A stretch of DNA of 64,000 nt from Streptomyces caatingaensis (GTDB taxonomy: Bacteria; Actinomycetota; Actinomycetes; Streptomycetales; Streptomycetaceae). A program made the position numbers and the translations under genes. Shown piece by piece: positions 5,196 to 32,693 of this stretch. Below the pieces are notes generated by a model that was not told the origin of the DNA, made no database searches, and was given only the letters and a program-made list of their open reading frames with translations. The DNA lies in assembly GCF_001187435.1 (NCBI RefSeq), contig NZ_LFXA01000018.1, forward strand, positions 248,001 through 312,000, written 5' to 3'. Within the stretch, counting starts at the first letter, position 1; the number at the start of each line of letters is the position of its first letter.

Positions 5196-6176
5196 ATGCA
5201 TGCGATCACCATCCCCACACCCGGCGGACCCGACGCGCTCGTCTGGGCCGAGGTACCCGATCCCGTGCCCGGCGGAGGAGAGGTGCTGATCGAGGTCGCC
5301 GCGACCGCCGTCAACCGAGCGGACCTGATGCAGCGCCAGGGTCTCTACGACCCGCCGCCCGGCGCCTCCCCCCTGCCCGGCCTGGAGTGCTCCGGCCGGA
5401 TCGCCGCGCTCGGCCCGGGGGTCAGCGGCTGGGCGGTCGGCGACGAGGTGTGCGCCCTGCTGGCCGGCGGCGGGTACGCGGAGAAGGCCGTCGTCCCGGT
5501 CGGCCAGCTGCTGCCCGTCCCCGACGGGCTGGACGTGGTGACGGCCGCGGCCCTGCCGGAGGTCACCGCGACGGTCTGGTCGAACGTCTTCATGCTCGCC
5601 CATCTGCGCCCCGGCGAGACCCTGCTCGTGCACGGCGGCGGCAGCGGCATCGGCACGATGGCCGTCCAGCTCGCCAAGGCGGTCGGGGCGCGGGTCGCGG
5701 TCACCGCGGGCGGCGCGGAGAAGCTGGAGCGCTGCCGCGAGCTGGGCGCGGACATCCTGATCGACTACCGCGAGCAGGACTTCGTCGAGGAGCTGGCCAA
5801 GGTCACCGGCGGCGCGGGCGCGGACGTCATCCTCGACATCGTGGGCGCCAAGTACCTGGCGCGGAACGTGGACGCCCTCGCCGTCAACGGCCGGCTCGCC
5901 GTCATCGGCCTCCAGGGCGGCCGCAAGGCCGAACTCGACCTGGGCAAGCTGCTGTCCAAGCGCGCCGCGGTCATGGCGACCGCGCTGCGCTCGCGCCCCC
6001 TCGCGGAGAAGTCGGCGATCGTCGCGGCCGTGCGCGAGCACGTGTGGCCGCTGGTGTCGGGCGGCCGCGTGCGCCCGGTCGTGGACCGGGTCATGCCACT
6101 GCGGGACGCGGCGGAGGCGCACCGGGTCGTGGAGGCGAGCACGCACGTGGGCAAGGTGCTGCTGACGACCGGCTGA
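5196..6176 (+). CDS. NAD(P)H-quinone oxidoreductase (zinc-free MDR family)
   Basis: Cytosolic medium-chain reductase of the quinone oxidoreductase/PIG3 type, 326 residues. Seen: N-terminal GroES-like fold with AVNRADLMQRQGLYDPPPG, then the Rossmann nucleotide motif HGGGSGIGTMAVQLAK. Cys/His zinc ligands of alcohol dehydrogenases are absent, consistent with a zinc-free quinone reductase. ATG 5196 is supported by conserved length; the spacing from the divergent channel gene is 92 nt. True substrate is unknown; the family reduces quinones or enones with NADPH. Confidence 0.85.
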   Translation: MHAITIPTPGGPDALVWAEVPDPVPGGGEVLIEVAATAVNRADLMQRQGLYDPPPGASPLPGLECSGRIAALGPGVSGWAVGDEVCALLAGGGYAEKAVVPVGQLLPVPDGLDVVTAAALPEVTATVWSNVFMLAHLRPGETLLVHGGGSGIGTMAVQLAKAVGARVAVTAGGAEKLERCRELGADILIDYREQDFVEELAKVTGGAGADVILDIVGAKYLARNVDALAVNGRLAVIGLQGGRKAELDLGKLLSKRAAVMATALRSRPLAEKSAIVAAVREHVWPLVSGGRVRPVVDRVMPLRDAAEAHRVVEASTHVGKVLLTTG

Positions 6177-6237
6177 GCCCGTCACCCGGACGGCCGCCCG
6201 GCGTGCCCAAGGGCGCCCGCCGTGTGACGGTGGAGGG

Positions 6238-6750
6238 GTGATCGCCGGAACCCGCCCGGGCGTGCTCGTCGGGCTGACGACGGCGGCCGTGCTCGTCCTG
6301 GCGCCGGGAACGGCGCGGGCCGAGGACGGGCCGTCGCCGCGGCACGTGCCGCGCGGCCCGGTCCCGTCCGCCGCCGACCCCGGGCGGCTCGCCGGGACGG
6401 TCGCGGGCCAGGGGCGCGCGCACCCCGGACGCGCCCCTGAGCCCTCGCGGGCGCCCGCGGAGCGCCCGGACGAGGAGGCGCCCCCGGAGGAGCCCGGCGC
6501 CGCCCCCGAGGCGTCGGAGACCCCCGCCGGGGCGGCCGCCACGCCCGTGCCGGACCCGTCCCCCTCGCCCACGCCGTCCTCGCCCGCCCCGCCCCCCGGG
6601 CCCGTGCGGGCCGAGGGCCGGGCGGCGGCGCGGGGCGACGCCTCCGGCGCGCCCCCCGAGCACGTGATGCGCGTCCTCCCGCTCGGCACCGGACTGACCC
6701 TCACCGGCCTCGGCATCGGCTTCCTCGGCCTGCGGCTGCGGCGCCGCTGA
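6238..6750 (+). CDS. secreted Ala/Pro-rich protein with C-terminal membrane anchor
   Basis: No domain recognised. Residues 1-28 form a signal peptide ending near TARAED. Residues 30-135 are Pro/Ala/Glu rich and low complexity (for example PDPSPSPTPSSPAPPPG). Residues 145-165 form a hydrophobic segment followed by RLRRR, so the protein is probably tethered to the membrane with an extracytoplasmic disordered arm. No LPxTG motif is seen. GTG 6238 lies directly after a GGAGGG stretch, which is too close for an ordinary ribosome site, so the start could differ slightly or the message could be leaderless. Confidence 0.6.
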   Translation: MIAGTRPGVLVGLTTAAVLVLAPGTARAEDGPSPRHVPRGPVPSAADPGRLAGTVAGQGRAHPGRAPEPSRAPAERPDEEAPPEEPGAAPEASETPAGAAATPVPDPSPSPTPSSPAPPPGPVRAEGRAAARGDASGAPPEHVMRVLPLGTGLTLTGLGIGFLGLRLRRR

Positions 6751-6832
6751 AGCCGCCCGGCCCGACCCGGGTGGATCAGCCGCATACAGGGGCATCACCT
6801 GGGGGAAATCACCTGTGCGAGAGAATGGCGGC

Positions 6833-7393
6833 ATGGATATGCCGAGGAACGAACGGTCGCAGGAGAGCCCGCACGTCCTGGTCGTGGGACCGGACGGCAT
6901 GGCTCTCGGCAGCGCTGGCCCCGGCGGCGGGGCCGGTGACGACGAGTCGCGCGAGGTCCCCGTGACGGAGCAGGTCGAACAGCCCGCGAAGGTCATGCGC
7001 ATCGGCAGCATGATCAAGCAGCTGCTGGAGGAGGTAAGGGCGGCTCCTCTGGACGAGGCCAGCCGCGTCCGGCTCAAGGAGATCCACCACAGCTCCGTCA
7101 AGGAGCTGGAGGACGGGCTCGCCCCCGAGCTCGTCGAGGAACTGGAGCGCCTCTCGCTCCCGTTCACCGACGACACCGTCCCCACCGAGGCCGAACTGCG
7201 CATCGCGCAGGCCCAGTTGGTGGGCTGGCTGGAGGGCCTCTTCCACGGCATCCAGACGGCCCTCTTCGCCCAGCAGATGGCGGCCCGCGCCCAGCTCGAA
7301 CAGATGCGCCGCGCCCTCCCGGCGGGCATCGCCGAGGAGGACCACGAGGGCGGCCGCCCCCAGCAGGGAGCGCGCTCGGGGCCGTATCTGTGA
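6833..7393 (+). CDS. bpa: bacterial proteasome activator (Bpa/PafE family)
   Basis: ATP-independent ring activator of the actinobacterial 20S proteasome (DUF2587 family). Seen: an acidic flexible N-terminus, the helical core from about KVMRIGSMIKQLLEEVR to LFAQQMAARAQLEQMRR, and a C-terminal tail ending GPYL. The known docking motif is GQYL or HbYX-like, so the Tyr-Leu end is kept but Gln is replaced by Pro. ATG 6833 is preferred over GTG 6815 because homologues, as I remember them, start near MxMPRNER. A strong hairpin follows at 7456. Confidence 0.88.
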   Translation: MDMPRNERSQESPHVLVVGPDGMALGSAGPGGGAGDDESREVPVTEQVEQPAKVMRIGSMIKQLLEEVRAAPLDEASRVRLKEIHHSSVKELEDGLAPELVEELERLSLPFTDDTVPTEAELRIAQAQLVGWLEGLFHGIQTALFAQQMAARAQLEQMRRALPAGIAEEDHEGGRPQQGARSGPYL

Positions 7394-7455
7394 CGGGAGC
7401 GCCTCCGTGACGGGAGCGCATCTCTGACCAGCGCACCTCCGTGACAGGAACGCAC

Positions 7456-7491
7456 GACGGGCCGGAACCCCCCTCGGGATTCCGGCCCGTC
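7456..7491. terminator. bidirectional hairpin terminator
   Basis: A perfect 12-bp stem (GACGGGCCGGAA with its complement at 7480-7491) and a 12-nt loop. It sits between the convergent ends of bpa and the PASTA-like kinase gene, so it can serve both strands. Confidence 0.8.
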
Positions 7492-7504
7492 GGCGTGTCC
7501 GCCG

Positions 7505-9124
7505 TCAGGAGGAGGGGTCGCCCGTGGAGACGGTGATCACGATGGTGGTGTTCTTCGGGTCGAACGCGTCGCCGGGCTGCGGGCTCTGCTGCATCACCAT
7601 GCCCTTGCCCCAGGTGTTCTCGTCCTGCTTGTCCTCGCGGTACTTCCAACTCGCCGCCTGGAGGCAGGACTTCACCGAGTCGATGTGGACCCAGCGCAGG
7701 TCGGGCATGTTCTTCTTGGTCTTGTCGAGGAAGCTGTCGCGCGCGTTGGTGCAGCGCTCCTTCTCGACGACCCTGGCCCGGTCGCCCTCCTTGTGCTTGT
7801 TCTCGTTGGACGTGCCGCCGCCGCCCGTGCCGCCGGCCGGGGACGGCGAGGAGGTCCGGGAGGTGTTCTCGTTCGCCCGGGTGTCCGGACCGCCGTCGGA
7901 GGAGCCGTTCTTGACGAGGACGACGGCGATGACGGCGATGACGGCCAGGGTGGCGACGATCGCCGAGCCGATGATGACCGGCTTGTTGCCCTTGGACACC
8001 GGGGCGGCCGGGGCCGGGGCCGGGGGCGCCTGGTACGGGGGAGGCGTCGGGTACCCCGGTGCCGGGGTGGGCTGCTGGTAGCCGGGGGCGGCGTACGAGG
8101 ACGGCTGGTACGGGGTCTGGACGGACTGGATGCCCGGGCCCGGGACCGCCTGCCGGTCCACCGGCGGGAAGACCGCCGAGGAGACCCCCGCCCCGCTGCG
8201 CGGCGCCGGGGCGTCGCCGCTGATCACCGGCGAGGGCGAGCCGTGGACCGTCGAGGCCACCCGCGCGCACTCGTCGCGCATCGCGGCGGCGGACGGGAAG
8301 CGCTCGTTCGGGTTCTTCTTCAGCGCGCGGGCCACCAGCGCGTCCAGCGCCGGCGGGATCGAGCGGTTGATCGTGGAGGGCGCGACCGGCTCCTCCTGGA
8401 CGTGCGCGTACGCGATGGCCAGCGGCGAGTCCGCGTCGAAGGGCAGCCGCCCGGTCAGCAGCTCGAAGAGCATGATGCCGACCGAATACAGGTCGGACCG
8501 CGCGTCCACCCCGCGCCCCAGCGCCTGCTCCGGCGAGAGGTACTGCGGGGTGCCCACGACCATGCCGGTCTGGGTCATCGACGTGACCCCCGACTGCATG
8601 GCGCGCGCGATGCCGAAGTCCATGACCTTGACCACATCACGCTTGGTCATCATCACGTTGCCCGGCTTGATGTCCCGGTGGACCAGCCCCATCTCGTGGC
8701 TGACCTCGAGCGCCGCCAGCACGTCCGCCGTGATCCTCAGCGCCTTGGCGGCGGGCATCGCCCCGTACTGCTTCACGTCCGCGTCGAGCACCGACCGCAG
8801 CGGCTTGCCCTCGACGTACTCCATGACGATGTACGGCATCGTCGTGCCGTCCAGCGCGTCCTCGCCCGTGTCGAAGACCGAGACGATGTTGGTGTGCGTG
8901 AGCTTGGCCACGGCCTGGGCCTCGCGGCGGAAGCGCTCGCGGAAGGACGACTCGCGGCCCAGCTCCGTGTGCAGGGTCTTGATCGCCACCTGGCGGTCCA
9001 GCACCGAGTCGTAGGCGAGGTGCACCGAGGCCATGCCGCCCTCGCCGAGGAGGTCGCGCAGCTGGTAGCGGCCGCCGCCGACGGCCCGTCCCGCGTAGCG
9101 GCCCTGTGCGCCGTCCTGGCTCAT
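7505..9124 (-). CDS. membrane Ser/Thr protein kinase with PASTA-like extracellular domain
   Basis: PknB-type receptor kinase, 539 residues. Seen: glycine-rich loop GEGGMASV, VAIK lysine, catalytic HRDIKPGN, VMDFG and GTPQYLSPEQ. A Pro-rich juxtamembrane stretch (about 330-375) is followed by one membrane segment (about 380-402) and a Ser/Thr/Gly-rich linker. The final 90 residues end in a single PASTA-like unit (MVMQQSPQPGDAFDPKNTTI). ATG 9124 begins MSQDGAQG; longer frames upstream lack support. Divergent from the next kinase gene. PASTA units usually bind muropeptides, so a cell-wall sensing role is likely but inferred. Confidence 0.88.
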   Translation of the reverse strand: MSQDGAQGRYAGRAVGGGRYQLRDLLGEGGMASVHLAYDSVLDRQVAIKTLHTELGRESSFRERFRREAQAVAKLTHTNIVSVFDTGEDALDGTTMPYIVMEYVEGKPLRSVLDADVKQYGAMPAAKALRITADVLAALEVSHEMGLVHRDIKPGNVMMTKRDVVKVMDFGIARAMQSGVTSMTQTGMVVGTPQYLSPEQALGRGVDARSDLYSVGIMLFELLTGRLPFDADSPLAIAYAHVQEEPVAPSTINRSIPPALDALVARALKKNPNERFPSAAAMRDECARVASTVHGSPSPVISGDAPAPRSGAGVSSAVFPPVDRQAVPGPGIQSVQTPYQPSSYAAPGYQQPTPAPGYPTPPPYQAPPAPAPAAPVSKGNKPVIIGSAIVATLAVIAVIAVVLVKNGSSDGGPDTRANENTSRTSSPSPAGGTGGGGTSNENKHKEGDRARVVEKERCTNARDSFLDKTKKNMPDLRWVHIDSVKSCLQAASWKYREDKQDENTWGKGMVMQQSPQPGDAFDPKNTTIVITVSTGDPSS

Positions 9125-9487
9125 GCTCCTGTTTCCCCCATCGGCGAGCCGGTTCCGGGCCCGGTCGCAAAGGTCTGATCCGGCCAGATCCCTCCGGCCG
9201 GACAATATCCCGGCCAAGTGTGCCGCAGGCCGGGGGCACGTCAAGCCACGTGCCCGTTCCGTGACCGGATGCGCGACAAGCCGTCACGGAATTTGCCTTG
9301 CGCGGCCCGCTGCGGGTTTGATTGCCCGTCCATCCCCGACCGGTGCGCATCCCGGAACCTGTAGCGTGCCTAGCGGAAGAACTGCATTGCTTCGTATCGC
9401 CCCGAGGTACTGCCCCGGGGCGCTGCGTGAGCACTGCCCCAAGGTTCAGGCCCCCACGCGAGCGGCCAGACACGACGGCGAGGACTG
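9125..9487. promoter_or_regulatory. divergent promoter region between two kinase genes
   Basis: 363 nt with no convincing gene. It must contain both promoters. A small inverted repeat, CGCCCCG at 9398-9404 with CGGGGCG at 9416-9422, lies in the leader of the rightward kinase, and GAGGACTG just before 9488 is a good ribosome site. No clear -35/-10 pair was identified. Confidence 0.45.
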
Positions 9488-11224
<1,737 letters not shown>

Positions 11225-23969: not shown

Positions 23970-24007
23970 ACTGTTGAGCGCAGGGGGTTCGACGCCGCAC
24001 TTGCGGC
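23970..24007 (+). pseudogene. 38-nt relic of a serine-integrase gene
   Basis: 34 of 38 bases match 24880-24917 inside the intact integrase gene, including 20 identical bases at the 3' side. Read in the integrase frame it gives TVERRGFDAALAA against TVERKGFDAALAA, and all but one difference is synonymous. Flanks do not match. It is best explained as a remnant of an earlier, related element. Confidence 0.5.
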
Positions 24008-24103: not shown

Positions 24104-24235
24104 ATGGGCGAGAAGGACGACGACTGGGGCCCGAACGAGAACCGGGACCAGGCGACCGACCCCGGTACGCAGGTTTCGCAGAACGGTAGCGTCTACAGCA
24201 GCAGGGCCGACGATGAGGAGCGCGAAGGGAAGTAG
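24104..24235 (+). CDS. small acidic hydrophilic protein, unknown
   Basis: 43 residues (MGEKDDDWGPNENRDQ to EEREGK), highly charged, no hydrophobic core, probably disordered. Support: an excellent ribosome site (GGAAGGAGC at 24089-24097) before ATG 24104, and a stop four bases before the next ATG, suggesting a two-gene operon. No family recognised. It lies between an integrase relic and the thioredoxin gene promoter, so it is probably element-derived cargo. Confidence 0.5.
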   Translation: MGEKDDDWGPNENRDQATDPGTQVSQNGSVYSSRADDEEREGK

Positions 24236-24238
24236 CGC

Positions 24239-24427
24239 ATGATCCACGGCGAGCACCTGGCGAAGGACCTACGGCGCGACCACGGGTTCACCCACATCGG
24301 GCGCACCAAGGACGGCAACGCCGTGATCATGCGCAAGGGCGACCGGTGGACCGTCGTGCCTCTGCGCTGGCTCAGCAGTGACGCCGTGGACACGATCAAG
24401 GCGCAGGCCGGGATCGGCCTCGTCTGA
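24239..24427 (+). CDS. small conserved-looking protein, unknown
   Basis: 62 residues, basic and compact: LAKDLRRDHGFTHIGRTKDG then WTVVPLRWLSSDAVDTIKAQ. The pattern suggests a small alpha/beta fold, but no family is recognised. It follows the 43-residue gene after three bases and is followed by a strong terminator, so the two form a closed transcription unit. Base use is less GC-biased than neighbouring core genes, fitting mobile origin. Confidence 0.55.
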   Translation: MIHGEHLAKDLRRDHGFTHIGRTKDGNAVIMRKGDRWTVVPLRWLSSDAVDTIKAQAGIGLV

Positions 24428-24476: not shown

Positions 24477-24539
24477 CGTCCGCCGATCCTGTCGGACGCC
24501 TGTGATCGTGCGTTCATGCGCGGATGGCACCCTTGTGTC

Positions 24540-24740
24540 ATGAGTGCTCCCACGCCCCGTCGCCCCCGCGTCCGTGCCCCCGAGCTGATCGGCAAGGGGG
24601 GCTGGCTCAATACGGGCGGGAAGGAGCTCGGGCTCGCGGAGCTGCGCGGGCGGATCGTCATCCTCGACTTCTGGAAGTTCACAACGAACCACGGAACTTC
24701 CAGGAGACACTTACGTGGTGCACCAAGACTCGATCTGTGA
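24540..24740 (+). pseudogene. stranded 5' end of the NHL-repeat thioredoxin gene
   Basis: Starts MSAPTPRRPRVRAPELIGKG and runs to VILDFW, closely matching residues 4-50 of the intact gene at 30864 (PELIGKGGW, NTGGK, DLRG, VDFW). After the TTCTGGA core at 24669 it continues in foreign sequence (KFTTNHG...) and stops at 24738, inside the integrase gene. The redox motif CCVNC is missing, so the product cannot be active. Its promoter region (from about 24480) is intact and now points into the integrase gene, whose GTG lies within its last 26 nt. Confidence 0.85.
24669..24675. other. left attachment core (attL)
   Basis: TTCTGGA, the longest exact match between the two junctions of the element. 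To its left is host thioredoxin coding sequence, to its right the integrase leader. Serine integrases cross over at a two-base core inside such a segment; which two bases cannot be decided here. Confidence 0.65.
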
Positions 24741-26265
24741 CCTGTACCTGCGTCTGTCGCTGGACAGGGACGGCAAGACGGCAATTGAGAGGCAGGAAGC
24801 GGACTGCCGTGCGTGGGCTGAGCGCAACGGTCTGACGGTCCGCAAGGTTCACATCGACAGAGGTCGCTCCGGCTACAAGACCGTGGAGCGCAAGGGATTC
24901 GACGCCGCACTTGCGGCTGTCACCGCCGGAGTGGTCGGCACCCTGATCGTCTGGAAGCTCGACCGGCTGTCGCGCCGGGGCATCGGACAGGTCGGCAAGG
25001 TCCTTGACGACATCGAGAAGGCGAGCGGCCGGCTGGTCTCCGTCATGGACGGGTTGGACACGTCGAACGACTCGGCCCGGATGATCGTCGCCATGCTCGC
25101 CGAACTGGCGCGCACGGAGTCCAAGAACCTGGGCACCCGTGTCGGGCACGCGAAGCGCTACCTCCGTAGCAAGGGCCAGTGGATCGGCGGACAGCCGCCT
25201 TACGGGCTGCGGGTGGACCCCGAGACCAAGAAGCTCGTCCATGATGCTGAGGACGCCGTCTACGCCCGTCTGATAGCGGATGAGGCGCTGGCCGGTAAGT
25301 CCCTGGTGAAGATCGCCCGGCTGCTCAACGAGTACGAGATTCTGTCTCCTCGTGGTGGGCAGTGGAACGCGGCGAGCATCATGCAGCTTCTGCGGTCGCC
25401 AGCGTTCGCGGGGCTCATGCCCGAGACCGAGAGCGTGGAGACGGACGATGGGGAGCGCAAGTACACGGGGCGCGTCTTCCCGTACCGGGATCCGGAGACG
25501 TTGGACACGGTGGAGATCGGGGAGGGGATCGTCACCGTGGGCGAGCGAGACAAGATCCTCCGGCAGCTTGAGGAGCGGACGTTCGTACACGCGGGCAAGC
25601 GCCGTCCGAAGGCCGAAGGGACAGCGCTGCTCACGGGGTTGATCTTCTGTGGGGTGCCGGGCTGTGGGCGGCGGATGCACCGTGTGGGCAACAGCTACCA
25701 ATGCATGGCGCGCCGCGCGGGGAACCAGTGTCCCGGAGCCAACGCGATGGCCGACCGCGTAGACGAATACGTCGCCGAGAGCTTCCTGTCCAAGCTTCCC
25801 GCTCTTGAGCCGACTGACCCTCTGGTGGTCGCGATGGCTGACCGCTGGGTTCACCGGTCTGATCCGGAGACGTTCGCCAAGCGGGACGCCATCAAGGCGG
25901 AGATCGAGGATGAGGAAGCGAGGTTGGCCGACCTTGAAGATGCTCGCTACGTGCGCGGCGAGTTCAAGGGGGCTGCGGCGGTGGAGCGGTATAACCGGCT
26001 GACGGGGCGGCTCAGGGAACGCATAGACGGACTGCGCGCCGACTTGGCGACGCTGCCGATGCCATCGGTGGACGTGACTCCGATGCTGGACAGCGAGATC
26101 CTGCGCGAAGCGTGGGGTGACTCCACGAATGTAGAGCGCCGGGAACGGTTGTCGCTTGCGATCGAGCGCGTTGAGGTCAGCAAGGGACAGCGCGGACGAC
26201 GATTCGTGCCTGAGCAGCGAGTCCGGATTGAGTGGGCGACGGTCAGGGAAGTTATGCCTCTGTAA
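24715..26265 (+). CDS. int: large serine recombinase (integrase)
   Basis: Site-specific integrase of 516 residues. Resolvase domain at the N-terminus: catalytic Ser in YLRLSLDRDG, then VWKLDRLSRRG and the RxxR region of the E helix. A recombinase domain follows (RSKGQWIGGQPPYGLRVDP, RLLNEYEILSPRGGQWN), then a zinc ribbon with paired Cys (FCGVPGCGRRMHR... YQCMARRAGNQCPG) and a coiled-coil motif of charged heptads (IKAEIEDEEARLADLEDA). GTG 24715 has AGGAG at 24701-24705. It lies 40 nt from attL, the usual place for such genes. No directionality factor is recognised. Confidence 0.92.
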   Translation: MVHQDSICDLYLRLSLDRDGKTAIERQEADCRAWAERNGLTVRKVHIDRGRSGYKTVERKGFDAALAAVTAGVVGTLIVWKLDRLSRRGIGQVGKVLDDIEKASGRLVSVMDGLDTSNDSARMIVAMLAELARTESKNLGTRVGHAKRYLRSKGQWIGGQPPYGLRVDPETKKLVHDAEDAVYARLIADEALAGKSLVKIARLLNEYEILSPRGGQWNAASIMQLLRSPAFAGLMPETESVETDDGERKYTGRVFPYRDPETLDTVEIGEGIVTVGERDKILRQLEERTFVHAGKRRPKAEGTALLTGLIFCGVPGCGRRMHRVGNSYQCMARRAGNQCPGANAMADRVDEYVAESFLSKLPALEPTDPLVVAMADRWVHRSDPETFAKRDAIKAEIEDEEARLADLEDARYVRGEFKGAAAVERYNRLTGRLRERIDGLRADLATLPMPSVDVTPMLDSEILREAWGDSTNVERRERLSLAIERVEVSKGQRGRRFVPEQRVRIEWATVREVMPL

Positions 26266-26602
26266 GCCTGCCTGAGTGCCTGTCACGGCCCGATGCCGGG
26301 ATTCCCCGGTGCCGGGCCGTTCGGCATTCCTGGGGGCGCACATGGACTCCGAGGGGCGTTGTCGGCTGGTGCGCCTAGGGTTTGCCGTGTTCGGCGAGGT
26401 GGGGTGGATGGCGAAACGGACCCCGTTTCCCGTTTGCCCTATAGCTTGTTTTGTGTTTTTGTTGCTCTCTTTTCACCTAAATGGCGGGTGACCTGGGACT
26501 TTGCACGACTACAGAGTCACTTGATGGGTGGTTCTTGGGTCACCTTGGGTCACTTACTGGGGTCCTCGATCGCTTCGCGATCTGCGGACAGCGGGGAGAA
26601 AA
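26266..26602 (+). promoter_or_regulatory. AT-rich region with GTGAC repeats upstream of the primase-like ORF
   Basis: 337 nt. An imperfect GC hairpin after the integrase stop (about 26288-26327) may be its terminator. From 26425 the sequence is unusually AT-rich (CTATAGCTTG, runs of T), followed by GGGTGACC, GAGTCAC and two direct TTGGGTCAC repeats (26535, 26545) with a 10-bp period. A short GATCGC-TTC-GCGATC hairpin (26568-26582) precedes a GGGGAG ribosome site for GTG 26603. This may be a promoter with operators or part of an origin. Confidence 0.5.
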
Positions 26603-27364
26603 GTGATTGAACATATTTCTTATGGGGGTTTGGGTAAGTTGGGGAAGTACATAGACGACGCGGTCGCTCGCAGCGCGCTGGAGACGGCGGCGCAGCACGC
26701 CGACAAGGCGGGGCGCCCGACGCCGTTCGTGTGGACGGGGGCGGACTGGACGACGCCGGGCGGGGAACGCCGTGATCTGCCGCTGATCCGGCGTGGCATG
26801 GGTGAGTGGTTGCGCGACCTTGGGGCTGGGCTGCACGCTGCTCACGCTGAGGCGGTGGACGCGCGGGCGCGCTGGAAGTACCTGATGGATCAGATGCGCG
26901 AGCTGCGAATCCAGGCAAACGCAGCCACCGACCCGGGCGCGAAAGAGTACCTGAATGAGGCTGCGGACGAGTTGGCACGGGATGCGTCGTACATCCATAT
27001 TCCCGCTGCGCCCATCGATCCGGACGTAGTTCCGGTGATTGGCTCCGTAGCTTCGGAGATCCTGTCGGCCCCCAACAGCCGGGCGACTCAACTCCTTTCG
27101 CTGGCTTCGCAGTTCGAGAGCTTCCGCGCTCCGATGCGTGATCCTGGCGAGTGGGTCAAGCGTCTCGCCGCTGCGCCCCGGAGCGTCCATGTACGCACGA
27201 CGGCCGTGTGGGATGCGTTCTGCGTCGCTGAACCCGTGTTGGCTCGTTCGCTGGGCGCGACGGCAGGTAAACGCGCGCTATTCGCTGCGATGGACCGGCG
27301 GTTTGGTGCGCGCCGGAAGCTTGCGGGTTATGAGGGTTGGCGGGGCGTGGCGCTGGGCGAATGA
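26603..27364 (+). CDS. putative replication-associated protein (primase C-terminus-like), unknown
   Basis: 253 residues from GTG 26603 (GGGGAG five bases upstream). No confident family. The last 50 residues, with VWDAFCVAEPVLARSLGA, FAAMDRRFGARRK and GYEGWRGVAL, resemble the C-terminal domain that follows P4-type plasmid/phage primase-helicases. Walker motifs are not present, so it would be a detached or degenerated piece. The middle part is helical and charged. Base use is less GC-rich than the core genes. A 93-bp concentric palindrome lies just downstream, so a replication role is reasonable but unproven. Confidence 0.5.
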   Translation: MIEHISYGGLGKLGKYIDDAVARSALETAAQHADKAGRPTPFVWTGADWTTPGGERRDLPLIRRGMGEWLRDLGAGLHAAHAEAVDARARWKYLMDQMRELRIQANAATDPGAKEYLNEAADELARDASYIHIPAAPIDPDVVPVIGSVASEILSAPNSRATQLLSLASQFESFRAPMRDPGEWVKRLAAAPRSVHVRTTAVWDAFCVAEPVLARSLGATAGKRALFAAMDRRFGARRKLAGYEGWRGVALGE

Positions 27365-27469
27365 CGCCAAGGGGTGGGGGATGACCCGCTGAGCCTGCCG
27401 CCGGAGACCGGAACCGTATAGCACTTCGCCGGGTGTACGGGTTTTCCAGTCGCCCGGTCGGCGGCGCGG

Positions 27470-27562
27470 GTGACGAAGTGACGAAGTGAGGGTAGGTCTC
27501 TGTATCCCTATAGAGAACTCTTAGGGAATACAGAATCATGCCTCAGTTCGTCACATCGTCAC
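27470..27562. repeat. 93-bp concentric palindrome, candidate origin or recombination site
   Basis: Outer arms 27470-27490 and 27542-27562 match at 19 of 21 bases and contain GTGACGAAGTGACGAA, itself a tandem repeat. Inner arms 27500-27510 (CTGTATCCCTA) and 27522-27533 (TAGGGAATACAG) match except one inserted base. Both pairs share the centre near 27516, and the interior is AT-rich (TATAGAGAACTCT). No gene lies across it. Order of this design suits a replication origin, transfer site or large operator. Confidence 0.75.
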
Positions 27563-27811
27563 CACTCCCAGGCGGGTGCCCCCTCTCCCTCGCTGCACTG
27601 ATCGGCAGGGAGACTTTTTCCTCGCATGGCCAATTCGGGCATTTCGGTGGGTCGTTGCCGTGAGTGACTGTCGGCAGGGCGTCCATCAAACGATGGTTTG
27701 TGAGACACCCTCGCCGACGCGCCGGACGGGCCGGGATCGTGACTCAAAACCCGTCTCACAACCTCTCCGAAACCCTTGATGTTCTGAGACGGGTTGTGAG
27801 ACAGTCGGGGC
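27563..27811 (+). promoter_or_regulatory. resolvase upstream region with three TTGTGAGAC repeats
   Basis: Holds GTTTGTGAGAC (27696-27706), the reverse complement GTCTCACAACC (27753-27763) and GGTTGTGAGAC (27792-27802). The last two belong to a larger inverted repeat (CCCGTCTC and GAGACGGG). Three subsites before a resolvase gene are what a res site looks like, and the third overlaps the region where the promoter and ribosome site of the gene at 27812 must be. Confidence 0.65.
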
Positions 27812-28390
27812 ATGACGACGAACACCGGACACCTCATCGGTTACGCCCGAGTCTCCACGGACGACCAGGAAGCGCAGTTGCAGCTTGACGCCTTGTCGGA
27901 TGCTGGCTGCGCCCGGATCTTCACGGACAAGGCGAGCGGGAAGAACACGGATCGCTCGGAGCTTGCTGCCGCGCTGGACTACCTGCGCCCCGGGGACACG
28001 CTGTGCGTGTGGAAGCTGGACCGGTTCGCCCGGTCGCTGATTGACCTTGTGACGATGGTGGACGCTCTTGCCGAACGGGGGGTGGGGTTCAAGGTCCTGA
28101 CGGGTGCGCTGGCGAGCATCGACCCCGGTACGGCGGACGGCCGGCTGATGCTTCAGGTGGTGGGCGCGATGGCGGAGTTCGAGCGGGCCCTGATCAAGGA
28201 CCGGACCCGGGCGGGGCTGGACGCTGCCAGGGCGCAGGGGCGTACCGGGGGGCGTCCGGCCGTGATGGACGCTGACAAGCTTGCCGCTGCGAAGGCGCGC
28301 CGTGCGAAGGGCGAGAGCGTGACGGCGATAGCGAAGGCGCTTGGTGTGTCCCGGGCGACGCTGTACCGGGCGTTGGGCGACGCGTCGTAG
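27812..28390 (+). CDS. small serine recombinase (resolvase/invertase)
   Basis: Hin/Tn3-type recombinase of 192 residues. Seen: GYARVSTDDQEAQLQLDAL with the catalytic Ser, KNTDRSELAAALDYLRPGD, VWKLDRFARS, the long E helix (MAEFERALIKDRTRAGL) and a C-terminal helix-turn-helix (SVTAIAKALGVSRATLYRAL). It belongs to a different subfamily from the element's integrase. Three repeats directly upstream are probable binding sites, so likely work is dimer resolution or inversion, with self-repression. A hairpin terminator follows. Confidence 0.9.
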   Translation: MTTNTGHLIGYARVSTDDQEAQLQLDALSDAGCARIFTDKASGKNTDRSELAAALDYLRPGDTLCVWKLDRFARSLIDLVTMVDALAERGVGFKVLTGALASIDPGTADGRLMLQVVGAMAEFERALIKDRTRAGLDAARAQGRTGGRPAVMDADKLAAAKARRAKGESVTAIAKALGVSRATLYRALGDAS

Positions 28391-28416
28391 TCCGCTGCGC
28401 CCCGAGGCTTGAGAGG

Positions 28417-28439
28417 CCGTCTGTCTTCACGACAGGCGG
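28417..28439 (+). terminator. hairpin terminator after the resolvase gene
   Basis: CCGTCTGTC (28417-28425), loop TTCAC, GACAGGCGG (28431-28439); nine pairs with one G-T, followed by TCTTTC. Confidence 0.7.
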
Positions 28440-28803
28440 TCTTTCGCTGTGTCGGCGCAGCGAGGGGGCAGGGCGCTGCGGAAGTTCGCTCGTTCGTACG
28501 TCTGGCGATCCCGGTCCAAGCTCCGCGTTCGCGTGCTGAGTGTGACACCGTTTTTCGACCCGAAACATTGGCTTTGACCTGCTGCAACGTGTCTCACTGC
28601 GCCTGAGATATGCCCTGTGAACGCCTTGGTAGCGGGTCGGAACGGCGTGTCAAGGGGTGGGTAGTGGCCCCTAAGCGCCTTCTCCCGTGCCGGGGGCCGA
28701 TAGCAGCGCCGTCCGCGTACGCGTCTGGGGGTTTCGTCCGAGTGCCTGAGCACCTGTGGCTGACCCTTCGCTGGGCTGGCTAGGGGACCGGTTCCACAGG
28801 CTC
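28440..28803. other. intergenic region inside the element
   Basis: 364 nt between the resolvase terminator and the stop of the TPR regulator. No gene supported. A single GTCTCAC (28591-28597) resembles half of the resolvase repeats. A loose CCGGTTCC/CACAGG inverted stretch near the end may terminate the regulator message. Confidence 0.4.
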
Positions 28804-29919
28804 TCAGGCCCTGATCTCGTCCATGAGCATCCGCAGCGTGAGGCTGTGCTTCTCGGGCGGCAGCGCGTCCATAGCGGCTTGGGCATAGGCGGCCCCTCCT
28901 GCGCTGTCCCCGGACCGGGCAAGCATTAGGCCCCGGTGCAGTTCTAGGTGGGTAGCGAACCGGGGCAACTCTGCGGGTAGCTCTCGTGCCGCCTGTTCCT
29001 GCGCTTCAAGGGCCCCTTTCTCATCTCCGAGGCGGGCCAGTAGCAGGGACCGGAATACGTTGAGTCGCCACCACGGAACGGCATAGTCGCTGGTTTGCTC
29101 GTACGACCCTGCCCGGTCGAAGATCCGGCGGCCATGGGTGTCCAGGTTGCGGGCCGCCTCACTGTCGCCCCGGAGTGCTGCGGCGTGGGCCTTGCCGTAG
29201 ACGGCGTTCAGGAGCCCCAGAGAGGGCCTGTCAGCACCGACAGCTAGGGCTTGATCGGCAAGGACGTCTGCGACCCCCAGAGAGGCGCCCTCGTACCCCA
29301 GGGCGATAGCGGCCCGCCCCCGGACCCAGACGCGCGCCTCGTCGTCTCCAGAGTGGTCCGCTGCGCGCGCTGCTAGGCGATACCAGTGCACTGCCTTGGC
29401 GCCGTCCGAACCGGGGAAAGTCTTGGCGTACAACGTCATGAGCCGTGCGGCGACGGACCAGAGGTGCGGGTCCTCCAACTGCTGTTGAACCACGACGAGT
29501 TCGCCGCTCACGCGCCGCTGAATATCAGCAGCGCCAAGGCTCATGTACTCGGTACCGTACGTGGCCAACTTGGCTTCCCACCTGTCTACGGATGGGCCGC
29601 CTTGAAGCCGTGCGGCGAACCCCATGCTGAGCAGGTCGGAGGCGACCACCGGGGCTATCGCGGTGGCAGCGACATCGGAGAGGAACGTCCGTCGGTTCAC
29701 TTCATCCTCAAGGACAGCCAGGGGGACATCTAGGACTGCGGACAAGCACCGGAGGTAGAACGGTCCCGGTGTCACTGCGGAACGCTCCCAACGGCCGATG
29801 TACTCCCGAGTCAGCGTGGTACCGAATGCCTTGTTGATCTCTGAAGCTAACCGGCCCTGGCTCCAGCCGCGAGCCTTGCGGAGGTCCTTGATTAGTTCCC
29901 CGATGGTCATGAAGCCCAT
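28804..29919 (-). CDS. XRE-family regulator with TPR-like C-terminal domain
   Basis: 371 residues. The N-terminal helix-turn-helix (TIGELIKDLRKARGWSQGRL, then TREYIGRWERSAVTP) is followed by a short NRRTFL motif typical of Streptomyces XRE-TPR proteins and about 280 residues of TPR-like helices. ATG 29919 has GGTAGGGG upstream on its strand; ATG 29910 is also possible. It is divergent from the three-gene operon at 30052, with 132 nt between. Likely the element's main repressor or regulator; ligand unknown. A distant relative is cut off at the right window edge. Confidence 0.82.
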   Translation of the reverse strand: MGFMTIGELIKDLRKARGWSQGRLASEINKAFGTTLTREYIGRWERSAVTPGPFYLRCLSAVLDVPLAVLEDEVNRRTFLSDVAATAIAPVVASDLLSMGFAARLQGGPSVDRWEAKLATYGTEYMSLGAADIQRRVSGELVVVQQQLEDPHLWSVAARLMTLYAKTFPGSDGAKAVHWYRLAARAADHSGDDEARVWVRGRAAIALGYEGASLGVADVLADQALAVGADRPSLGLLNAVYGKAHAAALRGDSEAARNLDTHGRRIFDRAGSYEQTSDYAVPWWRLNVFRSLLLARLGDEKGALEAQEQAARELPAELPRFATHLELHRGLMLARSGDSAGGAAYAQAAMDALPPEKHSLTLRMLMDEIRA

Positions 29920-30051
29920 CTTGCCCCTACCGCTGGTCCTTGACGGCATAAGAACGGCTGATCGAACAACACTTGCCCCCAGCGATGCCCCTATCCGGGC
30001 CCCATATCCGCCGGGACGATCGGCACACCTGGACGCGAGGGGACAGCGACG

Positions 30052-30249
30052 ATGGCGAGAACGCGCGAGACCGGGCACCCGTACGAGTACGTGACCTACC
30101 CCCCGAAGGGGCAGACGTGCGGGATGTGCCGGAAACCCATCCGCACTGACAAGATCTGCCGACGCGGGGACATCGAACGAGCCTCCGGCTCCCCGGTCGT
30201 CGTGTACTGGCACACGGACTGCGTTGCGCGGGCGGGGGGCGCCAAGTGA
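30052..30249 (+). CDS. small Cys/His protein, probable zinc-binding
   Basis: 65 residues. Cysteine/histidine pattern CGMCRKPIRTDKIC, then YWHTDCVA, gives CxxC...C...HxxC, enough for one or two zinc sites in the manner of small treble-clef proteins. First gene of a three-gene unit in which each stop overlaps the next GTG. Start ATG 30052 with GGGGACAG upstream. Function unknown; such proteins are frequent cargo on Streptomyces elements. Confidence 0.7.
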   Translation: MARTRETGHPYEYVTYPPKGQTCGMCRKPIRTDKICRRGDIERASGSPVVVYWHTDCVARAGGAK

Positions 30250-30524
30250 GCCGTAGTCGCCACTGGTACGCGGACTGGACGACGCTCCAGGACCCGGCCA
30301 CGGCCGCAGAGTTCGCCGTCTTTTGCGCTGAAGAGGGCTGCGGCGAACGCTTCATCATCAAGGACGGCCAGGCGGAAGCCGAGGCATGGACCTTCAACCA
30401 CACCCGTGACACCGGACACCGCCACTTCTGGCAGACGTTCGGGTACGCGATCGTCGTGGGCACGCCCCCGGGGGCCGTCTTGGCGGGCCGTCTCGCCCGG
30501 CAAGAACGGGCGGCGCAGCGGTGA
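30246..30524 (+). CDS. DUF7848-like small protein
   Basis: 92 residues from GTG 30246, overlapping the previous stop (GTGA). Seen: FAVFCAEEGCGERF, then AEAWTFNHTRDTGHRHFWQTF. The C-x-C/W/H...TGH layout resembles the chromosomal protein at 46534 (QCVVCGAASEP then QHWTFRHAGRNPSHHTY), which I take to be the same family. Second gene of the three-gene unit. Function unknown; a nucleic-acid or ligand-binding treble-clef role is only a guess. Confidence 0.65.
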   Translation: MSRSRHWYADWTTLQDPATAAEFAVFCAEEGCGERFIIKDGQAEAEAWTFNHTRDTGHRHFWQTFGYAIVVGTPPGAVLAGRLARQERAAQR

Positions 30525-30751
30525 CCCCCGCGAGACTCCAGAGGTGTCCGGCAGTCCCGTTACAGGCCCCGGAGCCGGTGAGCCTTGTGGACGACCTTGA
30601 CGGCCCGTACGCGGACTCTCCCGAGGGGTGGTGGACCGAGTACGGCGGGGCGCTGAACGTTCGCTCTGGTGTCGTCTACATACCTCGGGTCAACGAGCAT
30701 CCGCCGTGCCCGTTCCCGTGCAGGTTTTGCGCGGATCAGCGGGAGCGGTGA
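30521..30751 (+). CDS. small protein with C-terminal Cys pair, unknown
   Basis: 76 residues from GTG 30521, overlapping the previous stop. N-terminal half is Pro/Leu rich and may be disordered; the C-terminus has PPCPFPCRFCADQRER, a possible half zinc site. Last gene of the translationally coupled trio. No family recognised. Confidence 0.6.
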   Translation: MTPARLQRCPAVPLQAPEPVSLVDDLDGPYADSPEGWWTEYGGALNVRSGVVYIPRVNEHPPCPFPCRFCADQRER

Positions 30752-30784
30752 GGGAGAAGGGCCCTGCTCGTGCGCTGCCCCCGT

Positions 30785-30998
30785 GGCGTGCGGGTGGGGC
30801 TTTCGATTGGCCCGGTCGGGCGCCTGTGATCCTCCGTTCATACACGGATGGCACCCTGGGTGCATGAACGCTGCTTCCCCCGCTCCGCGCCGTCCCCGTG
30901 TCCGTGCTCCCGAGCTGATAGGCAAGGGCGGGTGGATCAACACGGGTGGCAAAAATCTGTCCCTCGCGGACCTGCGAGGTAAGTGCGTTGTTGTAGAT
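30785..30998 (+). promoter_or_regulatory. element-borne replacement promoter and 5' end of the target gene
   Basis: Mirrors 24455-24668. Before the start codon, GTCGG-CGCCTGTGATC, CGTTCAT and CGGATGGCACCC are shared with the stranded copy almost base for base; then the first 45 codons encode the same residues with many synonymous changes. After integration this segment drives and encodes the start of the NHL thioredoxin gene. In the circular form it would sit directly upstream of attP and the integrase gene. Confidence 0.75.
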
Positions 30999-32693
30999 TT
31001 CTGGACGTTCTGCTGTGTGAACTGCCTGCACGTGCTCGACGAGCTGCGGGAGCTGGAGGAGAAGCACCGGGACACCACGGTGGTCGTCGGCGTGCACTCG
31101 CCGAAGTTCGTGCACGAGGCCGAGCACCGGGCGGTCGTGGACGCCGTGGAGCGCTACGGGGTCCACCACCCCGTCCTGGACGACCCCGAGCTCGCGACGT
31201 GGAAGCAGTACGCGGTGCGGGCGTGGCCGACGCTCGTCGTGATCGATCCGGAGGGGTACGTCGTCGCCCAGCACGCCGGCGAGGGGCACGCGCACGCGCT
31301 GGAGGCGCTGGTCACCGAGCTGGAGGCCGAGCACGCGGCCAAGGGGACGCTGCGGCGCGGGGACGGGCCGTACGTGGCGCCCGAGCCGGTCGCGACCGAT
31401 CTGCGCTTCCCGGGCAAGGTGCTGGCCCTGCCGGGCGGCGGGTTCCTGGTGTCGGACACCACCAGGCACCAGCTCGTGGAGCTGGCCGGGGACGGCGAGA
31501 CCGTCGTCCGGCGGATCGGCACCGGGGAGCGCGGGCTGAGCGACGAGCCCGTGCGGTTCAGCGAGCCCCAGGGGCTCGCGCTCCTGCCCGACGGGCGGGT
31601 GGTCGTCGCCGACACCGTCAACCACGCGCTGCGCGCCTTCGACCCCGCGACCGGGCGGGTCACCACCGTCGCCGGCACCGGCCGCCAGTGGTGGCAGGGG
31701 GCGGCGACGTCCGGCCCGGCCCGCGAGGTGGCGCTCTCGTCCCCCTGGGACCTGGCCTGGTACGCGGACCGGCTCTGGATCGCCATGGCCGGCGTCCACC
31801 AGCTCTGGACGTACGACCCGGCGACGGACGCCGTCGAGGCCGTCGCGGGCACGACGAACGAGGGGCTCGTGGACGGCCCCGCCGCCGACGCGTGGTTCGC
31901 GCAGCCCTCCGGGCTGGCGGCGGACGGCGACCGGCTGTGGGTCGCCGACTCCGAGACCTCCGCGCTGCGGTACGTGGAGCGGGACGGGGACGGGTTCGCC
32001 GTGCGGACCGCCGTCGGGGCCGGGCTCTTCGACTTCGGGCACCGGGACGGGGACGCGCGGCAGGCGCTGTTCCAGCACCCGTTGGGCGTCACCGTCCTCC
32101 CGGACGGCTCCGTCGCCGTCTCCGACACCTACAACCACGCGCTGCGCCGCTACGACCCCGCGACGGGCCAGGTCAGCACGGTGGCGACGGATCTGCGCGA
32201 GCCCTCCGGCGCCGTGCTCGTGCCCGGCTCGGACGACATCCTCGTCGTCGAGTCGGCACGGCACCGGCTGACGCGGCTGCGGCTGCCGGAGGAGGCGGTG
32301 CGCGTGGAGTCCGTGGCGCACCGCACGCGGCGGGAGGCGACCGAGGTCGCCCCCGGGGAGCTGCTGCTGGACGTCGTCTTCCAGGCGCCGGCCGGGCAGA
32401 AGCTGGACACCCGGTACGGGCCGTCCACGCGGCTGCTGGTGAGCGCCACGCCGCCGGAGCTGCTGGCGGAGGGCGCGGGCAAGGGCACGGACCTCGGCCG
32501 CCGGCTGGTGCTGTCCCCGGACGTCGCGGAGGGGGTGCTGCACGTGTCCGCGATGGCGGCGTCGTGCGACGACGACCCGGAGAACGAGTACCCGGCGTGC
32601 CATGTGCACCAGCAGGACTGGGGAGTTCCGGTGCGCGTGGTCGCCGGGGGCGCGGAGCGGCTGCCGCTGGTGCTGGCCGGTCTGGACGGGTGA
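30864..32693 (+). CDS. thioredoxin-fold NHL-repeat protein (NHLRC2-like), chimeric 5' end
   Basis: 609 residues. N-terminal TlpA/thioredoxin-like domain with FWTFCCVNCLHVLDEL (CxxC redox pair in CCVNC), then a six-bladed NHL propeller of repeating GxVVVADTxNHALR motifs (about 200-510) and a C-terminal beta domain. No signal peptide, so cytosolic as in human NHLRC2. The first 45 codons and promoter come from the inserted element; the rest is host sequence, seen in the abrupt rise in GC after 31005. Reading frame is intact, so function is probably kept. Redox target unknown. Confidence 0.88.
   Translation: MNAASPAPRRPRVRAPELIGKGGWINTGGKNLSLADLRGKCVVVDFWTFCCVNCLHVLDELRELEEKHRDTTVVVGVHSPKFVHEAEHRAVVDAVERYGVHHPVLDDPELATWKQYAVRAWPTLVVIDPEGYVVAQHAGEGHAHALEALVTELEAEHAAKGTLRRGDGPYVAPEPVATDLRFPGKVLALPGGGFLVSDTTRHQLVELAGDGETVVRRIGTGERGLSDEPVRFSEPQGLALLPDGRVVVADTVNHALRAFDPATGRVTTVAGTGRQWWQGAATSGPAREVALSSPWDLAWYADRLWIAMAGVHQLWTYDPATDAVEAVAGTTNEGLVDGPAADAWFAQPSGLAADGDRLWVADSETSALRYVERDGDGFAVRTAVGAGLFDFGHRDGDARQALFQHPLGVTVLPDGSVAVSDTYNHALRRYDPATGQVSTVATDLREPSGAVLVPGSDDILVVESARHRLTRLRLPEEAVRVESVAHRTRREATEVAPGELLLDVVFQAPAGQKLDTRYGPSTRLLVSATPPELLAEGAGKGTDLGRRLVLSPDVAEGVLHVSAMAASCDDDPENEYPACHVHQQDWGVPVRVVAGGAERLPLVLAGLDG
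30999..31005. other. right attachment core (attR)
   Basis: TTCTGGA at the boundary between element-borne 5' sequence and host sequence. The codons just before it (GTT GTT GTA GAT) are AT-rich and atypical, as if held by the needs of attP. Reconstructed attP has loosely symmetrical arms (GTTGTTGTAGAT on one side, complement of GTTCACAACGAAC on the other). Confidence 0.65.

Follow-up and report, generated by a model that had tools for sequence, protein, structure and literature searches.

The integrative and conjugative element (ICE) SXT, which sits in prfC, and the elements inserted in dusA use tyrosine recombinases. ICEclc, whose recombinase is of another class than the serine type considered below, has a promoter, Pcirc, that acts across the closed circle. 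Rebuilding of the interrupted gene has been described for the dusA elements and for SXT in prfC; the dusA element IMEVchUSA3 brings a new promoter and a new N-terminus, 61% identical to the native one over 35 residues, and a lacZ fusion showed expression at a reduced level (PMC8409611; this and the following papers are represented here by extracts). For ICEclc, Pcirc is tabulated at position 102,729 for the intB13 transcript (PMC2892462). Serine recombinases were used by 19 of 144 actinomycete integrative and conjugative elements (AICEs), some of them integrated in protein-encoding genes (PMC3218068), and AICE decay and accretion at shared sites have been reported (PMC9513070). Integrative and mobilizable elements (IMEs) with site-specific serine recombinases disrupt dispensable genes upon integration (PMC5704250). 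Elements of the phiJoe/SCO2603 type, which are small and variable and have a serine integrase, occupy a conserved and often-occupied site of the Streptomyces chromosome, 74 bp from the end of an open reading frame (ORF) (PMC5311408). Here we analyzed a stretch of 64,000 nt from Streptomyces caatingaensis (contig NZ_LFXA01000018.1, positions 248,001 to 312,000; the whole stretch is referred to as the window), where a 6,330-bp element encoding a large serine integrase lies between two copies of the 5' end of one NHL-thioredoxin gene. We consider it very likely that this is an integrative element that inserts in the gene and rebuilds it with a copy of the 5' end that it brings along.

Two 5' ends of one NHL-thioredoxin gene

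Positions are those of the window, and genes, gene parts and upstream blocks lie on the forward strand unless stated otherwise. The full gene (ATG at 30864, stop at 32693) is a homologue of plant SOQ1 (5.7e-87) and human NHLRC2 (1.4e-63), and a second 5' end, the stranded copy, begins with an ATG at 24540. The two copies are in register at a spacing of 6330 and are 73% identical over 132 nt. The sequences upstream of them match at 40 of 46 nt (87%; 24488-24533 against 30812-30857). An earlier interpretation made from the DNA letters alone (the sequence-only reading) had both copies and their common upstream sequence in the right places, but its description of nearly identical residues up to the core TTCTGGA was too strong, as the coding parts match at 92 of 126 nt and 33 of 42 amino acids. 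It was also right that CCVNC and the NHL repeats follow TTCTGGA in the right copy only, and that the integrase GTG lies about 40 nt from attL, the left attachment site; this GTG (24715) is 42 nt past the inferred crossover dinucleotide TG (24672-24673).

In the relative G051, the NHL-thioredoxin gene is uninterrupted. When joined at the core, the window flanks give a single 2,291-nt alignment to G051 with 84.8% identity, and the aligned part includes a pair of small ORFs upstream of the stranded copy. Within the 30 nt that precede the core, the stranded copy agrees with G051 at 27 positions and the element copy at 18, and over 132 nt the numbers are 102 and 93. Among loci without a nearby integrase, the stranded copy is the nearer one for 78 of the 82 that lack an A-type arm (one of two types of element arm, see below) and the element copy for 3, with 1 tie; for all 13 that have an A-type arm, the element copy is nearer. 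The loci of this comparison were picked by similarity to the window protein and include some duplicates; 79 of the 80 named NHL loci are labelled Streptomyces.

The host side of the window would accordingly comprise an upstream block (24488-24539), probably a promoter and now directed toward the integrase, the stranded 5' end of 45 codons (24540-24674) and the body of the gene (31005-32693; Pfam NHL and Thioredoxin_8). The element side would comprise the block at 30812-30863, which is similar to the host block, probably also a promoter and now reading into the NHL gene, and a replacement 5' end of 47 codons (30864-31004). As the junctions indicate, the element supplies 5' coding sequence that is joined in frame at attR, the right attachment site.

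Moreover, the arms, that is, the ends of the 5' copies next to the core, differ in what they are inherited with. We used 42 loci with an NHL body and an integrase match of more than 320 residues for Mantel tests; L005 and L046 (the same places as L211 and L190) and L006, which has no integrase, were excluded here and from the attP and decay counts below. For the last 10 codons of the element arm, the partial Mantel correlation was 0.70 (p 0.0002) with the integrase given the body and 0.07 (p 0.05) with the body given the integrase. For the stranded copies (n=25), it was 0.40 with the body given the integrase and 0.26 with the integrase given the body. These correlations indicate that the element-side arm is inherited with the integrase and the stranded arm with the gene body.

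The two small ORFs mentioned above (24104-24427), which lack a Pfam match, have conserved counterparts in G051 (83% and 94%). Farther left, a stretch of 38 nt (23970-24007) is 89% identical to positions 24880-24917 of the integrase gene and 97% identical over 35 nt to the integrase of locus L143, and no good match to it was found within the fetched stretch of G051. It looks like a scar of an earlier integrase.

The integrase, its probable target and its probable attachment site

We searched 392 genomes of the genus and counted integrase matches of at least 50% identity among the matches listed, leaving weaker fragments aside; "without integrase" below means that no such match was listed. The integrase was found in 24 genomes besides that of the window, in all 24 at this locus, and the NHL body lies downstream in 22 of them. 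In a family sample of 394 genomes (E 1e-80), 31 genomes from 5 of 17 genera had a match: six known from the genus sample (including the window's, and G064 at 38%), G663 at 40% and 24 new ones at 60% or more. The matches at 38-40% (G064 and G663) stand outside the locus counts. The NHL body is downstream in 23 of the 24 new genomes, and G520 runs off its contig. Over both samples, 45 of 48 further genomes have the integrase just upstream of this gene; in two the body is lost or nearly lost, and one runs off its contig. The proposal of the sequence-only reading that insertion rebuilds the gene as a chimera is supported by this recurrence, together with the empty site in G051 and the element arm that tracks the integrase.

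Locus L143 (G104) has the integrase and has lost the NHL body, and in L146 (G159) the body is reduced to its last 75 residues. G057 has a partial integrase match of 45%, located away from its NHL gene.

Tandem 5' ends in element-free relatives had been named as the observation that would speak against insertion. Such a case was not clearly seen. A second 5' copy occurs at 6 of 110 loci (for 29 of the 110, the flank covered was about 1.5 kb); five of the six have an integrase, and the sixth, L006, has element remnants. Two more genomes without integrase have a second 5' copy, G379 and, weakly, G218, both with an element-type arm. In L006 (S. palmae), the remnant at 6153-10141 has no integrase and a P' arm nearly the same as that of the window. 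About 35 bp across the start codon are missing from its stranded copy (judged by eye), and its right 5' end closely resembles the stranded one, as gene conversion between the two would produce.

We rebuilt attP, the attachment site of the element, from the left part of attR and the right part of attL, and scored it in the 26 loci that have an attR and an attL core fitting our search expression. It is an imperfect dyad centred on TG in 25 of them, including the window locus, with a mean match of 0.55 at TG versus 0.20-0.35 at 24 other shifts. We infer that crossover takes place at the TG of TTCTGGA, the 2-bp centre of imperfectly dyad attachment sites. In the window, this would be 24672-24673 in attL and 31002-31003 in attR. 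The attL (24651-24700) would consist of the host B half-site (about 24651-24671) and the element P' half-site (about 24674-24700), with approximate outer limits. Because the attP dyad is centred on TG, one half-site of the integrase (P) would lie within coding sequence in the main groups. In the window, this putative A-type P half-site (30975-31004, on the forward strand) is overprinted on the codons of RGKCVVVDFW, as indicated by the arm comparison, the attP dyad and a scan for the arm pattern.

The A-type arms read RGKCVVVDFW and the B-type arms RGRTLILDFW, with variants of both. Codons -10 to -8 of the A-type rarely change between genomes (0.16, 0.08 and 0.00, versus 0.62, 0.56 and 0.40 in native genes), and B-type arms are nearly fixed at codons -10 to -5 (0.00-0.12). 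A uniform codon constraint across the P arm is not seen in A-type arms and was rejected.

The integrase (24715-26265) combines PF00239, PF07508 and PF13408 (Resolvase, Recombinase and Zn_ribbon_recom), all above their curated cut-offs, in one protein of 516 amino acids, which makes it a large serine integrase. It falls in PHROG 95 (integrase), and its best solved match is the PhiC31 integrase; a directionality factor for excision was not identified. A phage or plasmid origin was considered and rejected, with relatives of the integrase all below 60% identity in 50,697 phage and 72,556 plasmid records; a scan of viral contigs confirmed none. The ORFs of the window tested with Pfam and PHROG include no replication or transfer gene (AICE-type Rep, FtsK-type Tra) and no phage structural gene, so the window element is classed neither as an AICE nor as a prophage. 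A 17.1-kb form in G438, from another genus of the family, has RepSA (507 bits), FtsK_SpoIIIE (33 bits) and a DUF2637 protein, which is the AICE gene set. At the other end, ten loci with an intact integrase have only 229 to 1,010 nt between the integrase end and the core, and their integrases show ratios of nonsynonymous to synonymous substitution (dN/dS) of 0.06-0.12 against their nearest relatives. Judged by gene content, related donors span integrase-only insertions to a 17.1-kb AICE.

The remaining ORFs of the window element are cargo. An ORF at 26528-27364 (tested from 26630) has no Pfam or PHROG match. A small serine resolvase/invertase (27812-28390; Pfam Resolvase and HTH_7) is preceded by an inverted repeat with 26-nt arms (27740-27803) and is followed on the reverse strand by a regulator with HTH_3 and HTH_31 (28804-29949). 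Then come three small ORFs: one at 30052-30249, with a 54% identical stretch in L003 and no Pfam match; one at 30246-30524, with DUF7848; and one at 30521-30751, with a 63% identical stretch in L203 and no Pfam match. Elsewhere, small resolvases occur in several element loci (L142, L192, L201 and others examined), and a PCMT-like methyltransferase, a D5-type primase, a DUF5753 regulator and a DUF6879 protein were each found in cargo tested in one locus.

Fate of the copies and competing explanations

In the explanation that we favor, attP sits within the element's own copy of the upstream region and first 47 codons of the target gene. Recombination at TG, presumably carried out by the integrase itself, would join the element 5' end to the host body, giving a working gene at attR, and would leave the host 5' end facing the integrase at attL. 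With the element copy in place, selection on the host copy would be relaxed and it would decay; from then on, excision would leave a broken gene, which would make the swap permanent. Arms without an integrase would be footprints of lost elements. At the sequence level, this explanation is supported by the junctions, the empty site, the co-inheritance of arm and integrase, the attP dyad, the recurrence at one gene, the range of donors from AICE to integrase-only, and the arms without a listed integrase match.

Several points weigh against it. No excised circle, free attP donor or RNA was seen in this sequence analysis, matches to the integrase in phage and plasmid records all stay below 60% identity, and the viral-contig scan confirmed none. 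The distances of integrase and body correlate (r 0.42) and the Mantel tests leave some shared ancestry, so part of the arm-integrase pattern is vertical inheritance; the first 28 codons track both the integrase (partial 0.30) and the body (0.22). L207 has its best attP symmetry elsewhere than TG, the symmetry of attB is weak (peak 0.35, at the same place as the attP peak), and the TTYTG core is not shown before the integrase in five distant loci (L159, L160, L162, L209 and L210). In A-type arms, the constraint is found at codons -10 to -8 only, and variability at -7 to -2 is like that of native genes. Loci without integrase and with two 5' copies do exist (L006, G379 and, weakly, G218), all with element features.

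Decay of the host copy was followed through the stranded ORF. In loci with an intact integrase it is open from ATG to core in 23 of 35, namely 18 of 22 with at least 2 kb of cargo, 3 of 10 with nearly none and 2 of 3 whose distance was unmeasured. It is open in 2 of the 18 loci with a non-intact integrase (18 of 53 integrases are non-intact). We scored 11 of the 24 loci without a readable 5' copy, which were located through the core expression (four) or the P' arm (seven). In 8 of the 11, agreement with the native profile is retained over the 20 nt left of the crossover (0.55-0.76; the 95th percentile of random windows was 0.37-0.41), and in 7 of these 8 the fit drops to 0.24-0.39 over the preceding 20 nt, with 0.55 in L206. 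One of the 8, L151, is a point-decayed copy. Of the other three, L145 and L147 are shifted by one base near the core (judged by eye) and L202 has no half-site. The test was devised after looking, its random windows covered positions -20 to -1, and loci located by the core favor a kept half-site. The kept B half-site fits selection on a working attL, in few cases and with four of them located by the core itself.

A broader reading of these data, which we hold tentatively and regard as doubtful, is an addiction that needs no toxin. The host copy would be freed to decay while about 20 nt of B half-site is kept, and excision, chemically possible but gene-destroying, would lock the element in. The integrase would work on borrowed promoters: active in the circle and immediately after integration, it would fall silent when the host copy disappears, and repeated rounds would have overwritten the gene start across the genus. 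This reading is weakened because the half-site count comes from 11 of 24 loci, four of them located by the core.

The promoters deserve separate consideration. The layout proposed by the sequence-only reading, with the host block toward the integrase and the element block into the NHL gene, agrees with the sequence, and the upstream block is probably the promoter of the gene. With our search expression, it was recognized in 28 of 58 native-type loci and in 28 of 50 copies on the element side, and other clades have different upstream sequence. If the blocks are promoters, the host copy would read into the integrase in the integrated state and the element copy in the circle. It is rather unlikely, however, that the main function is a switch in which the integration state sets which promoter drives the integrase. 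Such a switch would suit the block on both window copies and the integrase start, which lies about 35-42 nt from the core in loci where both could be read and leaves little room for a promoter of its own. Against this, the two blocks are near copies (40/46 nt), 12 of the 35 loci with an intact integrase have no intact host 5' copy, and a promoter may lie inside the P' arm. Because the blocks are near copies and the host block is often lost, we prefer a borrowed promoter whose loss may silence the integrase over a two-way switch. Translational coupling of the stranded ORF to the integrase was rejected: in the window the frame passes the GTG (stop at 24740), but in most other loci printed it stops within a few codons of the core.

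We then come to arms without an integrase. A-type arms are present in 21 of 392 genus genomes, 8 of which have a listed integrase match, and B-type arms in 38, 10 of which have one; the reversed control pattern was found in 0 of 392 for each type. Together with the single alignment to G051, the A-type count against its control places the observation beyond chance. G379 carries both types, giving 58 genomes in all, 40 of them without a listed integrase match. The NHL body is joined to 20 of the 21 A-type matches, that of G379 being a stranded copy, and to all 30 B-type loci fetched out of 38. In G230 (L272), the end of the nitrilase gene is about 260 nt before the B-type arm. This is close to the 178-227 nt to the core in element-free loci (L002, L008, L009, L014 and L074), and therefore nothing of an element appears to be left there. 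Precise excision would have restored the native 5' end. The swap thus seems to outlast the element.

The reverse direction, in which such arms are native variants that elements captured from their hosts, we judge unlikely. The 40 of 58 arm-bearing genomes without a listed integrase match would suit it, and a host gene must at some time have been the source of the element 5' end. However, the arm is one half of the integrase's dyad, G379 and L006 retain a second 5' copy and further foreign sequence, and several integrases at the locus are visibly decaying. Insertions also seem to have followed one another, as indicated by the order of arms in L066 and L205, where a B-type element lies within a gene whose stranded arm is A-type, by the same order in G379, which has no integrase, and by a third, decayed 5' copy in L198. 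By this evidence, serial insertions occur at this gene.

It is still less probable that the small integrase-only loci are not worn-out elements but domesticated devices kept by the host to act on the NHL gene. Their dN/dS values and the half-site kept in 8 of 11 scored loci would agree with this, but a third of the integrases (18/53) are non-intact, arms survive in their absence, pairwise dN/dS includes any time during which the element was mobile, and the 11 loci are a biased subset. Finally, a tandem duplication of the 5' end by the host, with the integrase gene arriving separately between the copies, would give two homologous 5' ends in the same orientation, but is hardly credible beside the recurrence just upstream of one gene in 45 of 48 genomes, the joined flanks that fit an uninterrupted relative, the right arm that tracks the integrase and the attP dyad at the junction.

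Comparison with described elements

In the open-licence PMC literature, we found no paper on a serine integrase with a Streptomyces attB in an NHL-repeat/thioredoxin gene, or on a serine recombinase that supplies a new promoter and N-terminus. The working principle is already known; as far as our literature search reaches, the serine class, the half-site in coding sequence, the target and the apparently lasting swap have not been described together.

In the family proposed here, the target gene would be spared from harm because the element brings a borrowed piece of that gene with one attachment half-site in it. Should the swap survive the loss of the element, as the sequences suggest, past insertions could be read from one conserved gene, and the turnover of elements, their lock-in and the effects of N-terminal swaps would become testable in non-pathogenic bacteria. 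New pairs of integrase and attachment site could also insert DNA and yet leave the target gene whole.

The serine-recombinase AICEs and IMEs are among the closest systems, and AICE genes (RepSA and FtsK) are present in the G438 relative. The phiJoe/SCO2603-type elements resemble the window element in being small and variable, with a serine integrase and a conserved site, but the extracts used describe no replacement of gene sequence for them. The serine-recombinase IMEs, as far as the extract goes, disrupt their target genes, while the window element appears to rebuild its target. In ICEclc, a promoter acts across the circle, as the element block might here; the window case differs from the tabulated Pcirc in that its promoter region duplicates that of the target gene.

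SXT in prfC is a precedent for rebuilding. The window recombinase is of the serine type according to Pfam and PHROG, which places it outside this tyrosine family, and its element further differs in the TG-centred dyad, half of which lies within coding sequence, and in donors that go down to integrase-only. The dusA elements, as described in the extract, follow the same principle of a new promoter region and a new N-terminus. The window case, described here from its sequence, differs from them in recombinase class, in host and in the apparent persistence of the swap after element loss.

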